From contig CALVVS010000008.1 of NCBI GenBank assembly GCA_944363925.1, positions 1 through 37,303 on the forward strand: a DNA stretch of 37,303 nt, read 5' to 3'. How positions within the stretch are numbered: position 1 is the stretch's first letter; every line of letters starts with the position of its first letter. Both the position numbers and the translations under genes were made by a program. Source of the stretch: an uncultured Bacilli bacterium (GTDB lineage: Bacteria; Bacillota_I; Bacilli_A; RF39; UBA660). Below, in pieces: positions 18,280 through 29,484 of the stretch. The notes below the pieces were generated by a model. It was not told the DNA's origin. It ran no database searches and saw only the letters and a list, made by a program, of their open reading frames with translations.

Positions 18280-18293
18280 GTTCTGAGATTTTT
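18264..18293. terminator. Bidirectional terminator between vanY copy 2 and the surface-protein gene
   Basis: A perfect 12-bp stem, AAAAATCTCAGA (18264-18275) with TCTGAGATTTTT (18282-18293), encloses a 6-base loop that contains the vanY stop codon. Confidence 0.9.
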
Positions 18294-18831
18294 AGTATAT
18301 TCTATTAATGGCTCTTCCATCAAAAGTCATACTATATATTCCATCATTGGTTGAAAAATATATATAACTATCAATTGAAGTTAATGCATTGGCAGCATAA
18401 GAAGTTATTTTCTTAACGCCTCCATTTCCATTTTGTGCTATTCTATATATTCCATCATTGGTTGAAAAATATATATAACTACCGGTTGAAGTTAATGCAT
18501 TGGCAGCATAAGAAGTTATTTTCTTAACGCCTCCATTTCCATTTTGTGCTATTCTATATATTCCATCATTGGTTGAAAAATACACATAGCCGGCTATTGT
18601 TAACGCTTTAAAATTATTACTCCCCGATGCTGCACTTTTACAGGTATTATATAGTTCATCAATAGCTCCTTGTACATCAGTTGAGTTAAGTTTACTAGAT
18701 GTATTGTTATAAGTTACTTGATTACTTGGAAAGTATGTTACGGCATACACACAAGTGGTGCCACCAATAAAGACGCCTAATATTAATAAAAGTATTTTGT
18801 TTTGAAAAAATTTTTTTATTTTATTTTTCAT
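18292..18831 (-). CDS. TYFPSN-family surface protein with propeller-like repeats
   Basis: The 179-aa product has a basic start, a hydrophobic helix (about 13-30) ending CVYA, then VTYFPSNQVTYNNTSSKLNS and VQGAIDELYNTC (to about residue 64). The rest is a tandem array of 37-residue units: YIYFSTNDGIYRIAQNGNGG, then VKKITSYAANALTS, with two near-identical units and partial ones at either end. The YIYFS...GIYRI...G pattern resembles DUF5050/propeller repeats that display hydrophobic strands. Three units are too few for a closed propeller, so oligomerisation or length variation is likely. GGGAG precedes the ATG. It faces the XRE gene at 18951. Function is unknown; secretion or surface anchoring is inferred from the signal. 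Confidence 0.82.
   Translation of the reverse strand: MKNKIKKFFQNKILLLILGVFIGGTTCVYAVTYFPSNQVTYNNTSSKLNSTDVQGAIDELYNTCKSAASGSNNFKALTIAGYVYFSTNDGIYRIAQNGNGGVKKITSYAANALTSTGSYIYFSTNDGIYRIAQNGNGGVKKITSYAANALTSIDSYIYFSTNDGIYSMTFDGRAINRIY
18332..18588 (-). repeat. Tandem 111-bp coding repeat
   Basis: The 11-mer CTATATATTCC recurs at 18332, 18443 and 18554, exactly 111 bases apart. The first two units differ at only a few positions (ATCAATTG against ACCGGTTG). The third copy diverges after about 35 bases. The unit length equals 37 codons, so gain or loss keeps the frame. Confidence 0.9.
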
Positions 18832-18950: not shown

Positions 18951-19229
18951 ATGATAGCAAATAAAATTAAAATATTAAGGGAAAATAAAGGGTTATCACA
19001 AAAAGCTTTAGCTGATAATCTTGGCATTACAAGGTCTAGTGTTAATGCTTGGGAACAAGGCATTTCGGTTCCATCGACCCAATATATTGTGGAACTAGCT
19101 AATTTATTTGAGGTGTCAACAGATTATTTGTTAAATTTTAAAAATGATAAGGCTATCAATATAGATGGTTTAAATGAAAAAGAAATTAAGATTATTTTAG
19201 AATTAATAGAATATTTTAAACAAAAATAA
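18951..19229 (+). CDS. XRE-family HTH regulator
   Basis: The 92-aa product has a textbook Cro/C1 HTH at residues 4-60: KIKILRENKGLSQKALADNL, then GITRSSVNAWEQGISVPSTQ and YIVELANLFEVSTDYLL. A short acidic tail (NEKEIKIILELIEYFKQK) may dimerise. GGTGAT lies ahead of the ATG. It is divergent from the surface-protein gene at 18292-18831, whose control region holds a perfect palindrome, so it probably represses that gene and itself. A terminator follows immediately. Confidence 0.92.
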   Translation: MIANKIKILRENKGLSQKALADNLGITRSSVNAWEQGISVPSTQYIVELANLFEVSTDYLLNFKNDKAINIDGLNEKEIKIILELIEYFKQK

Positions 19230-24610: not shown

Positions 24611-26281
24611 TTACTTAGTTTTTGTTTGATTTTTAATTAATGATTGATTTGTTTCATAGGTAACAATTATATTATGTTTGCCTTCTTCATAACCTTTTTC
24701 GATGGGATAAACTTCTTTGACGGTTATGTTATCGTATTCTAGATTTGGTTCAATTATTAATGGGGTTTCATATGTTTTATTAATATCGGCAGGAACATAT
24801 ATATAATACCAATATTTACATTCGATAAGTCCTAGTTTTTGAGCGGTTTGGATATCATAGTTCTCGCCGGTAGATGTATTATAGACGTAATCTTCTAGCT
24901 TTGATGCTTCATTTAACTGTGAGATTATTTCATATTTATTATCTAATATATTATATTCGGTAAAGATAGGGATATCTTGTTTTTTTAAGTTATCGACTTC
25001 TGATTTTTCAATATATTTTTTTTGAGCTATTGATATTTTGACAATGTTTTTTTCAAGAGCTTCTTCGAGAGGTATAATTTTAGAGAATTTAAGTGAAAAG
25101 TCATTATTTTTATTATTGAAATAGTTTTTATCAATATTATATGTATCAAAGATGATCTTTGTTTCATTATAGAGATAGCTTAATTCAGTTTCTTCATTTG
25201 TTAAGGTGTTATAGATTTGGTACAGATATTTATCAATTTTATTATTAAGAGTTTTTTGATTTTCTTCGGATAGATATGCGGGATTTTCCTGAAATAGTTT
25301 TAATAGTTCATTAGCATCTTCTTTTGGTAAAATGTCGTATATTTTGTTTTCGAAATCAGTAGTAGTGCCACTAAAGTTTAAGTTCCATATAGTTTCTTCC
25401 CCTATTAGTTCCATTAGGAATTGTAATCTAGATACAGCTTCGGTGTAGGTTATATTTGGAACATTATAGTATTCAGAGCTGATTAAAGAGGCACTGGCTT
25501 CTTTGATATATGAATATTCATTAAATGATTGCATTAGATGGATAAATTCATGTATTTTAGTATTATTATCTTCTTCATTAGCAAGATGAATTATATTCGG
25601 ATATAAATCAGAATACCAGCCTAGCATGTTTTCGTTATTTGGGTCATTTATTCCGACAGCAATGGTTATATCGGTCATTTTTTCTTCTAAGGATGAGTAT
25701 CTATCTTCGGTTACCGGATTTTGGGTTAGGTCTTCAAAAAAGTTTTCATTTATTAAAAGTTTTTTATCTTGTTCTGATAGATTTTTAGAATTAATAATAT
25801 ATTGTTTTAAATCAGAACTGGTCAGTTTTATTTCATTTGATTTTTTCAACTGATTATTTGTATAGTTAATATTTTGGTTAGTTATGAAAACTTGGTTTAC
25901 GGAACTAGTAAGCGATAATAATAGAGTTATGTTTAGACATATAATGCATCCTTTTATGGCATAGGTTTTTATATTATCTTTTTGAGCATTATTTATACAC
26001 AAAACGGCATTTTGACCATTTTCTTTAAAGAATTTTTCATAATTTTCTTGATTATTTTGATAAAAATGTTTATATCCTGTTTCTTCATCTAAATACACTT
26101 CATAAATATCTTTGTATAAAAATTTGGGCTTATGACAAGTTGTAAGTTCTTTAATTAAAGATGAAAAGTAATTATTGGTAGTGATTTTTTTATTAAATGT
26201 TTTGTAATAATTTATAATGTTACCGTTTTCATAGTCTACATATATTGTTTGGTTATTAATTTTTATTATTCCTAAATGCAT
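24611..26281 (-). CDS. Membrane-anchored putative zinc metallopeptidase (HEFIH family, copy 1)
   Basis: The 556-aa protein has no signal peptide at its start. A polar N-terminal domain (1-105; MHLGIIKINNQTIYVDYENG, TCHKPKFLYKDIYEVYLDEE, KENGQNAV) is followed by one membrane helix (about 112-133) and a large C-terminal region, probably outside. That region has IHEFIHLMQ (His244-Glu245-x-x-His248), then EYSYIKEASASLISSEYY with Glu261 as a possible third ligand: an HExxH-x12-E zinc-site pattern. Near the end is DIQTAQKLGLIECKYWYY. The paralogue at 27751-29484 keeps all these features. I recognise no named peptidase family, and activity is inferred from the motif alone. GGAG precedes the ATG. Confidence 0.8.
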   Translation of the reverse strand: MHLGIIKINNQTIYVDYENGNIINYYKTFNKKITTNNYFSSLIKELTTCHKPKFLYKDIYEVYLDEETGYKHFYQNNQENYEKFFKENGQNAVLCINNAQKDNIKTYAIKGCIICLNITLLLSLTSSVNQVFITNQNINYTNNQLKKSNEIKLTSSDLKQYIINSKNLSEQDKKLLINENFFEDLTQNPVTEDRYSSLEEKMTDITIAVGINDPNNENMLGWYSDLYPNIIHLANEEDNNTKIHEFIHLMQSFNEYSYIKEASASLISSEYYNVPNITYTEAVSRLQFLMELIGEETIWNLNFSGTTTDFENKIYDILPKEDANELLKLFQENPAYLSEENQKTLNNKIDKYLYQIYNTLTNEETELSYLYNETKIIFDTYNIDKNYFNNKNNDFSLKFSKIIPLEEALEKNIVKISIAQKKYIEKSEVDNLKKQDIPIFTEYNILDNKYEIISQLNEASKLEDYVYNTSTGENYDIQTAQKLGLIECKYWYYIYVPADINKTYETPLIIEPNLEYDNITVKEVYPIEKGYEEGKHNIIVTYETNQSLIKNQTKTK

Positions 26282-26354
26282 AATTTACTCCTTTTGTTTT
26301 TACTTTATCTATTATTTATTATAACTTATATATTAATTTATGTACAATATTATA

Positions 26355-26397
26355 GAAGAAAAAAGTTCATAATTTTTGACTAGTATTATGAACTTTT
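26355..26397 (-). terminator. Long-stem terminator downstream of the third surface-protein gene
   Basis: A perfect 13-bp stem, AAAAGTTCATAAT (26361-26373) with ATTATGAACTTTT (26385-26397), is followed leftward by TTTTTTC. It lies about 110 bases past the stop at 26506. Nothing else was seen in 26398-26505. Confidence 0.85.
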
Positions 26398-26505
26398 ATA
26401 TTAGTTTTTGATGTTTTTTATATAAAATTAAAATCCTATATGAATTTGCTTTCTTTGCCTTTTATTAATTAGTGTTTGCTTAAAAATGAATATATCAATA
26501 TGTTT

Positions 26506-27207
26506 TTATTTTATAAATATACTATCGATAGCTGGTGTCCCAAAACCTAATTGATAGGTTAATAAGGTCTGTTGGTTTTGGCCATTTAAGTCTGCTCTAA
26601 TAAGATAGGCAGTTTGCGTACGGGTTGAACCAGAAGCTGATTCTCTATTGTATGAATAATATATATAATTATTTGTCACATATATATCACTGATAACGGG
26701 ATACCCATTACCTACGTTATATGTTAATAAGGTCTGTTGATTTTGGCCATTTAAATCTGTTCTAATTAGCCACGCTGATTTTGTACTAGTGCTACCTCCG
26801 CTTTCTTTATGATAAGAATAATATATATAATTATTTGTTACGTATATACTATCCATAATTGGATAATATGAGCCTTGGGAAATTTCTATTAATTTTTTTT
26901 GGTTTTGTCCATTTAAGTCTGCCCTAATAAGATAGGCAGTTTTCGTACTGGATGAACCAGAAGGTGATTCATAATGATATACATAATATATATTATCTCC
27001 TGATTTTATTGATGATGAACATGTATTATAAAGTTCATCTATTGCCCCTTGTACATTTGTAGAATTTAATTTACTAGAACTATTATCATAGGTTACTTGA
27101 TTAGAAGGAAAATAAGTTATTGCATATACACTTACCGTACTAAATAATAACCCTCCAAAAATAAAAATAAATATTTTACTGTTAAAAATTTTTTTTAATT
27201 TTTTCAT
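26506..27207 (-). CDS. TYFPSN-family surface protein with 54-residue propeller-like repeats
   Basis: The 233-aa product has a basic start, a hydrophobic helix ending SVYA, then ITYFPSNQVTYDNSSSKLNS and VQGAIDELYNTC (to about residue 66). Three units of 54 residues follow. Each unit reads NYIYYSYHKESGGSTSTKSA then WLIRTDLNGQNQQTLLTY, with NVGNGYPVISDIYVTN after it. The units are 162 bp apart in the DNA and have diverged more than the 111-bp units of the gene at 18292. The YIYY...LIRADLNGQN pattern resembles DUF5050-like propeller blades. AGGAGG precedes the ATG. It is divergent from a double-HTH regulator and lies between two HEFIH proteins. Function is unknown. Confidence 0.82.
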   Translation of the reverse strand: MKKLKKIFNSKIFIFIFGGLLFSTVSVYAITYFPSNQVTYDNSSSKLNSTNVQGAIDELYNTCSSSIKSGDNIYYVYHYESPSGSSSTKTAYLIRADLNGQNQKKLIEISQGSYYPIMDSIYVTNNYIYYSYHKESGGSTSTKSAWLIRTDLNGQNQQTLLTYNVGNGYPVISDIYVTNNYIYYSYNRESASGSTRTQTAYLIRADLNGQNQQTLLTYQLGFGTPAIDSIFIK

Positions 27208-27314
27208 TACTCTACCTCCTATGTTATTTATAGTATATCATATTTTTGTCGTATAGAATAGCGTTTTTTATTAAATTTTTATTTTGTAGTTACAATTTTT
27301 ATAGGTGATACAAT

Positions 27315-27749
27315 ATGGAATTTAAAAGAATTAAGGCTATTAGAGAGGACAATGATTTAACGCAAACTGAAATAGCACGTATACTTGGAGTTAATAGAGG
27401 GGCTTATTCTTTATGGGAGCTTGGCATAAATACAATTCCTTTAAGTTACTTAAATGTTTTTTGTAATAAGTTTGAATTAAGTTTAGATTATATTTTAGGG
27501 ATAACTAATGTTAAAAATTATACTTTGGTTAATAATGATATTGATATTAATGTTTTGGGTAAAAGATTAAAGTTTATTAGAAAAAAAGAAAAGAGAACAC
27601 AAGAAAATATTGCGTCTCTTTTAAATACAACGCACTCTACTTGGAGTGCTTATGAAAATTGCAAGGTTTTAATTCCAACGGTATTTATTTGGAAATTTGC
27701 GACTGAGTATAAGTGTTCTGTAGATTGGTTATGTGGTAAAATTAATTAA
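27315..27749 (+). CDS. XRE regulator with two tandem HTH domains
   Basis: The 144-aa product has two Cro/C1-type domains in a row. The first (2-60) includes RIKAIREDNDLTQTEIARIL, then GVNRGAYSLWELG. The second (about 78-140) includes LKFIRKKEKRTQENIASLLN, then TTHSTWSAYENC and FIWKFATEYKCSVDWLCG. GGTGAT precedes the ATG. Two DNA-binding domains in one chain could read two half-sites without a dimer, consistent with the absence of an obvious perfect palindrome in 27208-27314. It is divergent from the surface-protein gene at 26506-27207 and converges on the HEFIH gene ending at 27751. Confidence 0.9.
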   Translation: MEFKRIKAIREDNDLTQTEIARILGVNRGAYSLWELGINTIPLSYLNVFCNKFELSLDYILGITNVKNYTLVNNDIDINVLGKRLKFIRKKEKRTQENIASLLNTTHSTWSAYENCKVLIPTVFIWKFATEYKCSVDWLCGKIN

Positions 27750-27750
27750 T

Positions 27751-29484
27751 TTATTTTGTTTTAGAAGTTTGATTTTGATACAGGTATTGATTTGGCACAT
27801 AATTTATTATTATATTATTTAAAGGATATATTTCATTAGTAGATGCACTTATATTTTCGATATTATTGTAAGGATCTAATAATTTTATTTCTGGTATATT
27901 TATAGTTATATTAGGAATATTTTCATATTTTTTTATTTCATCATATTGTATATTATAGAAAAATTTATATTGATAGTATTTTGTTTCTATGAGTCCAAGA
28001 CTTTGAGCTTCGGCTACTGTATATTGTTCGCCGGTATTATAATTTATAAAATATTGATTACCATTTTCATCAAATATTAATTCACTTATATTTTTATTTA
28101 AAATTATATATTCCTCATGTATTATATCATCGTTACTGATTTGTGATGGATCATTGGGATTGATGTAATTTTTTTGAGTTAATGTATACGATATATCTAT
28201 CATATTTTGGTTTAAAGCAATGTCAAGAGGAATAGAAAATTTATATTCAAAAGGGTTTATGGCATTTTCTTTATTTTTTTCATTGAAATAGTTACGGTTT
28301 AATAAATATCCTTTACTTGCTAGATGATTTGTACTGGAAATATCGGTTAAAAATTCTAGGGTTTCTGTATTTTCAGGAGCTAAAGATTTATACATTTGCA
28401 ATAAATAGTTATCTATTTTTTGGTTAATTTCATAGTTTTTTGATTGACTAAGCATACCTATACTAGAGGTAAATAATTCTAACAATTCTTCGGCATCTTT
28501 TTCAGGCAATAGGCTTTTGATGGCTATTTCAAATTCCCTAGTACTACCACTAAAGTTTAAATCCCATATGATGTCTGGTCCTATTATTTCCATTAAAAAC
28601 TGTGTTCTAATTATAGCATCGTTGTAGGCAGTTTGGTTACTATTATAATATTCATTACTAATTAAAGTTGCACAGGCTTCTCTAATATATTGATATTGAT
28701 TATCATCTTGCAGTAAATGGATAAATTCATGGATAGTGGTTTGATTATCATTTTCATTAACTACATGAATCTGATTAGAAATCATTGGATTATACCAACC
28801 AAGCACACCGTCAGCAGGTTTACCTTCTTGACCATATACGATATCTATATTAGTCATTTTAACTTCTAGAGAAAAGATTCTGTCACTAGTCATGAGGGTT
28901 GTAGACAGATCATTAAATAGGTCATTATTAATTAATAGTTGTTTTTCTTGTTCATTTAAGTTGGGAGAGGTATTGATAAAGTTTTCGAAAAAGTCGGCGT
29001 CTACTTTTTCATCTGGTATACTATATTCGATATTATTAGTTATATCAATTTGAGTATTTGTTTTAGTCGTTTCAATTGTATATATTGCGGATACGGCTGA
29101 AATAAAAGTTATAGATGATATGAAAATAATAAATATTTCGGTTCCTTTAATGATAAAGCTTTTTGAATTATATTTATTTTCATTTGATGCTTTATTTAAC
29201 ATGATAGCATTTTGACCATTTTCATAGAAAAATTTTAAATAGTCTTCTTTTCCATTTTTATAGAAGTGTTTAAAGTTGGTTTTTTCATCTAAATATACTT
29301 CATATTCATTTTGATACAAATATTTTGGTTTATGACAAGTTATAATATATTTGATTAGATTAATAAATATTTCATTTGGGATGATTATTTTTTTATCTTT
29401 GGTTTGTTTATAGCAACAAAGCTCTTTATTTTTAATATCAATGTATATTATATTATCTTTTATTCTAATTGTTCCTAAATGCAT
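27751..29484 (-). CDS. Membrane-anchored putative zinc metallopeptidase (HEFIH family, copy 2)
   Basis: The 577-aa paralogue of the gene at 24611 has the same plan: MHLGTIRIKDNIIYIDIKNK, TCHKPKYLYQNEYEVYLDEK and YENGQNA in the N-terminal domain, then a membrane helix (about 112-137). The C-terminal region has IHEFIHLLQ (His252, Glu253, His256), then QYQYIREACATLISNEYY with Glu269. TVAEAQSLGLIETKYYQYKF near the end matches copy 1. AAAAGGTGAAATT precedes the ATG, and the gene starts 11 bases after the cca stop, so it may be transcribed from the cca promoter. Its substrate is unknown; the neighbouring surface protein is the nearest candidate. Confidence 0.8.
   Translation of the reverse strand: MHLGTIRIKDNIIYIDIKNKELCCYKQTKDKKIIIPNEIFINLIKYIITCHKPKYLYQNEYEVYLDEKTNFKHFYKNGKEDYLKFFYENGQNAIMLNKASNENKYNSKSFIIKGTEIFIIFISSITFISAVSAIYTIETTKTNTQIDITNNIEYSIPDEKVDADFFENFINTSPNLNEQEKQLLINNDLFNDLSTTLMTSDRIFSLEVKMTNIDIVYGQEGKPADGVLGWYNPMISNQIHVVNENDNQTTIHEFIHLLQDDNQYQYIREACATLISNEYYNSNQTAYNDAIIRTQFLMEIIGPDIIWDLNFSGSTREFEIAIKSLLPEKDAEELLELFTSSIGMLSQSKNYEINQKIDNYLLQMYKSLAPENTETLEFLTDISSTNHLASKGYLLNRNYFNEKNKENAINPFEYKFSIPLDIALNQNMIDISYTLTQKNYINPNDPSQISNDDIIHEEYIILNKNISELIFDENGNQYFINYNTGEQYTVAEAQSLGLIETKYYQYKFFYNIQYDEIKKYENIPNITINIPEIKLLDPYNNIENISASTNEIYPLNNIIINYVPNQYLYQNQTSKTK

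Follow-up and report, generated by a model that had tools for sequence, protein, structure and literature searches.

The window analysed here, a 37,303-nucleotide stretch of contig CALVVS010000008.1 (assembly GCA_944363925.1), derives from an uncultured Bacilli bacterium whose genome is a 1.44-Mb draft, 76% complete. It carries two paralogous genes, peptidase A and peptidase B, which bracket a TYFPSN surface-protein gene and a divergent XRE regulator gene. We propose that A and B are probably active, membrane-anchored zinc ectopeptidases of the clan MA gluzincin type, which belong to an uncatalogued family and are encoded by accessory genes acting alone; the enzyme class, metallopeptidase, is very probably right. 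This reading is based on the conserved motif, the predicted arrangement of domains, charge bias, phylogeny and synteny, from which zinc binding, catalysis and substrate are inferred. A first-pass annotation of the same DNA had described both open reading frames (ORFs), their lengths, the N-terminal motifs they share and an HExxH motif with a Glu 12 residues further on, all of which were found as stated. Its interpretation as membrane HExxH proteases gains support from the conservation of the motif and the peptidase-like predicted fold, and the peptidase family that it could not assign is likewise represented by no Pfam or NCBIfam model that fits A or B.

The two proteins are 42% identical from end to end (pairwise alignment, E 2e-121); both contain TCHKPK-[FY]-LY and ENGQNA, and in both HEFIHL is followed after 12 residues by Glu. 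All 45 homologues that are long enough to hold the HExxH motif retain it, so that the frequent loss in close homologues, which the first-pass annotation had named as evidence against itself, is not seen. In an alignment of 42 sequences, in which homologues are mostly some 20–30% identical and many are near 20%, only H252, E253, H256, E278, Y287 and G302 (B numbering) show no variation; this invariance, together with the retention in 45 homologues, places the motif beyond chance. The Glu that follows, at position 269 of B, is a likely third zinc ligand, being E in 41 of the 42 sequences and D in one, and lying on the following helix of the model. The stretch that separates this Glu from the second His is 12 residues long in 25 of the 42 sequences and 11–15 in 38, with an overall range of 11–23. 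Glu278 was considered for the same role and rated less likely than Glu269, since nine residues further along the helix it should face the other way and since PepN has a matching Glu that is not a ligand. A profile comparison with Escherichia coli PepN (E 0.013, with a probability of only 3.4%) aligns the two HExxH motifs with each other, the candidate third-ligand Glu with the ligand Glu of PepN (KEG), and Glu278 with the PepN Glu nine residues on.

AlphaFold modelling of B with the 42 sequences gave a predicted local distance difference test score (pLDDT) of 84 and a predicted template modelling score (pTM) of 0.80, and the catalytic domain modelled alone reached a pLDDT of 91.9 and a pTM of 0.88. 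In the domain model, HExxH lies on a helix spanning residues 92–103, which leads through a short loop to a helix spanning residues 110–125 (domain numbering), with Glu269 near its start. The first-pass annotation would have been contradicted by HExxH residues placed apart or in a non-peptidase fold; the model shows a peptidase-like fold in which HExxH and Glu occupy successive helices. When the 1000 candidates returned by Foldseek were realigned with VIA-align, nearly all of the best 50 rows were zincin-fold metallopeptidases. The best row belonged to M1 (Z 6.3, 5.0 Å, 167 residues), and further rows to M9 (Z 5.5), M4 (Z 5.2), M61 (Z 3.7), M34/PPEP (Z 3–4) and M78. Because this list is so one-sided and coincides with the HExxH motif, a zincin fold is probable for the modelled catalytic domain.

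Several results weigh against this assignment. Foldseek itself returned no significant row for either the full model or the catalytic domain (E-values above 0.1), and the places at the head of its ranking went to unrelated PPAR domains. All structural Z-scores stay below 8 (maximum 6.3), which is modest and alone no proof of a fold. Pfam and NCBIfam scans of A and B gave nothing significant, a sequence search of the PDB yielded nothing significant, its matches being coiled-coil-like apart from a weak one to 4l7a, and a single homologue, L040, carries Asp at the third-ligand position. PHROGs and PADLOC scans of the two proteins were equally without significant matches, and a search for PF13485 found no match anywhere, control genomes included, and is thus uninformative. 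Sub-threshold matches in single homologues (SprT-like, M78, DUF6782 and MXAN_6640_HExxH) were not used. No published description of the family was found in the literature, of which subscription journals mostly lay outside the coverage.

Among known peptidases, the M1 family (E. coli PepN, LTA4 hydrolase and ERAP2), which supplies the best structural rows, shares with A and B the HExxH motif and a subsequent helix that opens with the Glu of an E-[AG]-x-[AT] sequence; nine residues later comes another Glu, matching one in PepN. However, M1 enzymes have 18 residues between the second His and Glu instead of 12, and A and B lack the M1 beta domain and possess a membrane anchor and a cytosolic domain. 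The GxMEN exopeptidase motif that precedes HExxH in M1 is absent from the A/B alignments, and no M1 family profile is among those listed for members. The M34/PPEP enzymes (PPEP-1/Zmp1) are small secreted Firmicutes gluzincins that appear among the structural rows at Z 3–4, but show no sequence match to A and B; PPEPs have neither the N-terminal domain nor the membrane helix. The peptidase domains of M4 (thermolysin, aureolysin) and of M9 collagenase have the zincin architecture that is predicted for A and B (Z about 5), but these enzymes are secreted, differ in motif spacing and give no family match. The spacing of 11–23 residues in the A/B family fits the pattern HEXXHX(8,28)E published for M60-like (PF13402) mucin peptidases (PMC3267712); no match to PF13402 or PF03272 (M60/M60-like) is listed for any member.

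Each protein has a single hydrophobic segment above threshold, at residue 117 in B and residue 108 in A. Since net charge is higher on the N-terminal side of this segment in 38 of 42 homologues, a topology with the N-terminus inside and the peptidase domain outside is supported by the sequences, in agreement with the first-pass annotation, which had predicted the N-terminal domain to be inside. Accordingly arranged, the proteins would keep their N-terminal ~100 residues in the cytosol and cross the membrane with one helix, while the outward domain would bind one zinc ion through His252, His256 and Glu269, and Glu253 would act as the general base in the cleavage of peptide bonds on the cell surface or close to it. 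The beta-rich domain at the C-terminus, with 36% identity between the paralogues the lowest of the folded parts, shows the low conservation expected of a part that chooses the substrate and would probably help in its selection. Such a recurring surface peptidase family, which has no database entry, adds a testable outward activity in uncultured gut-type Bacilli, whose small genomes contain few recognised surface enzymes.

The family is restricted essentially to one bacterial family. A profile search of the latter detected members in 46 of 386 sampled genomes and 28 of 150 genera, often as one copy per genome; a class-wide sample added one marginal match elsewhere (E 4e-4), and a scan of genome contigs found one relative. 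Within the genus it occurs in five of 44 genomes, namely the window's own genome (A and B), G026 and G012 (B), and G014 and G029 (A). The tree resolves two strongly supported sister clades in the genus, one uniting A with the copies of G014 and G029 (support 100/100) and the other uniting B with those of G026 and G012. On these sequences, the simplest reading would be that a tandem duplication came first and that some lineages later lost one of the two copies; tandem pairs are also present in some of the genomes sampled across the bacterial family (G267, G332 and G795). Peptidase orthologues are only ~51–60% identical, compared with 81–94% for the flanking CCA-adding enzyme, DnaD and PBP1A proteins, and the peptidases therefore evolve fast. 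As the flanking genes of homologues in other genera vary by locus, no partner gene is seen travelling with the family.

What the retained outer domain does has been weighed against three other readings. It is improbable that A and B are inactive adhesins or binding proteins that merely keep a zincin fold: although peptidase-inactive zincin folds are known and one homologue replaces the third-ligand Glu by D, a binding role would not demand that H, E and H stay invariant across 42 otherwise ~20–30% identical sequences. A role as transmembrane regulators, in which the cytosolic domain relays what happens at the outer peptidase, or the signal runs the opposite way, and sensing or regulated cleavage prevails over degradation, is unlikely, yet it is the alternative with the most in its favour. 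Conservation of the N-terminal domain extends across genera, N89 being invariant and D66, E80 and G90 more than 90% conserved, and within the genus it roughly equals that of the catalytic domain. However, no regulatory family matches the domain, it has no accompanying partner gene, and short relatives lack it, carrying a signal-like helix in its place while keeping the catalytic domain. A related reading, a new kind of protease-sensor in which the cytosolic domain is coupled through the one helix to the outer gluzincin so that surface proteolysis controls a cytosolic event and is controlled by it, is slightly less likely again. A search for the N-terminal domain in 243 genomes gave confident scores on these peptidases only, plus one weak match in a 219-residue frame; this dedicated, conserved cytosolic domain constitutes a new sequence family and is the most interesting part of the peptidases. 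A phage-borne or defence gene, which the patchy distribution in an insertion slot might suggest, is very improbable given that 50,697 phage records and the plasmid records held no match to the peptidases, that no relative was confirmed in viral contigs searched with an alignment of close homologues, and that no PADLOC or PHROG family applies.

The reading of A and B as ectopeptidases acting alone departs from the first-pass annotation over the combined cassette that the latter had suggested, with membrane proteases acting on surface proteins, releasing them or competing with them. Applied to this locus, A and B would do so with the TYFPSN protein, under the XRE regulator. The genes are adjacent in the window, and B-type genes are confined to three genomes (the window's own, G026 and G012), all rich in TYFPSN genes; since these three are close sisters, the association amounts to about one event and is weak evidence. 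The check that the annotation had itself proposed, co-occurrence in other genomes, showed that either module can occupy this slot when the other is absent. Across 30 loci of the genus, the slot between dnaD and the CCA-adding-enzyme gene is empty in 10, holds a peptidase in five, XRE-TYFPSN without a peptidase in four, and other genes, some of them surface-protein-like, in 11. In the four with XRE-TYFPSN (G065, G004, G002 and G018), the XRE gene ends 19–78 bp short of the CCA gene, with no trace of B to be detected; in G014 (90% complete) and G029, A directly follows the CCA gene, and no TYFPSN match was found anywhere in either genome. The window's own genome contains 51 TYFPSN leaders and two peptidase matches, and of the nine divergent XRE-TYFPSN pairs seen among 25 copies examined, eight are not beside a peptidase. 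A terminator-like hairpin precedes A (fold z −4.1, equalled by none of 200 shuffles), and B and XRE converge with 1 bp between them; by layout, the peptidase genes appear to be separate transcription units. The promoter-like sequence 5′ of A is only suggestive, as such sites are not above chance in the region (45 versus 42.8 in shuffles). Because each fills the slot without the other, and because of the hairpin and the convergent arrangement, the peptidases and XRE-TYFPSN appear to be two modules that occupy one exchange slot independently of each other, and the cassette is correspondingly improbable. Within the genus, the peptidase genes would be tandem duplicates that share the slot with unrelated surface-protein modules, and the locus illustrates that genes sharing an exchange slot are easily taken for a functional cassette when synteny is not controlled for.

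Table 1. Positions of the peptidase genes, their predicted parts and neighbouring features in the window.
Feature	Position	Strand	Description
Peptidase A	24611-26281	-	Intact ORF, 556 amino acids (aa); predicted cytosolic domain, one transmembrane helix, extracytoplasmic gluzincin-like domain and C-terminal beta-rich domain
HExxH of A	25538-25552	-	H244, E245, H248; from sequence, invariant in 42 homologues
Glu261 of A	25499-25501	-	Predicted third zinc ligand, from alignment; position E in 41/42, D in 1
Peptidase B	27751-29484	-	Intact ORF, 577 aa; start 11 bp downstream of the CCA-adding-enzyme gene end; AGGTG, resembling a ribosome-binding site
N-terminal cytosolic domain of B (aa 1-100)	29185-29484	-	Predicted alpha/beta
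Transmembrane helix of B (aa 117-137)	29074-29136	-	Predicted from hydrophobicity; N-terminal side the more positive in 38 of 42 homologues
Catalytic domain of B (aa 161-385)	28330-29004	-	Predicted; pLDDT 92 folded alone
HExxH of B	28717-28731	-	H252, E253, H256; from conservation
Glu269 of B	28678-28680	-	Predicted third zinc ligand, on the next helix (aa 265-280)
C-terminal beta-rich domain of B (aa 386-577)	27754-28329	-	From model; least conserved folded part between paralogues
Promoter-like TGTACA-17-TATAAT	26318-26346	-	Directly 5′ of A; consensus match only
Terminator-like hairpin	26361-26397 (approximate ends)	-	13-bp perfect hairpin and T run, between TYFPSN gene and A
TYFPSN surface protein	26506-27207	-	Neighbour between A and B; judged outside the peptidase system
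XRE regulator	27315-27749	+	Two helix-turn-helix (HTH) domains; divergent from TYFPSN gene, convergent with B; judged outside the peptidase system
Slot between dnaD and CCA-adding-enzyme gene	24525-29496		Gene-exchange hotspot in the genus
Second TYFPSN gene	18292-18831	-	Paired with a divergent XRE gene at a distance of 120 bp; no peptidase close by
XRE gene of second pair	18951-19229	+	Single HTH; divergent from TYFPSN gene

The TYFPSN proteins form a clade-restricted, dispersed family with a fixed leader and a variable C-terminus. The leader consists of a signal peptide followed by TYFPSNQVTYDN...NVQGAIDELY, and among the 44 genomes of the genus it was counted 23–44 times in six sister species of the window's bacterium, a single time in each of two others and never in the remaining 35. 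A divergent XRE gene stands beside nine of the 25 TYFPSN copies sampled, 34–140 bp upstream (loci listed for such pairs: L152, L153, L154, L156, L157, L162 and L166). The XRE proteins differ in length between pairs, which suggests that each pair has its own regulator.

Near the slot of G014, just upstream of the CCA gene, lies an ORF resembling a TnpB/IS200-type transposase (L010:8245-9189), which was named by eye from its sequence. Among the peptidase homologues, the match at L027 (genome G207) crosses stop codons or two frames and looks like a broken gene; that at L020 (G303) also crosses stop codons or two frames and may only be short.

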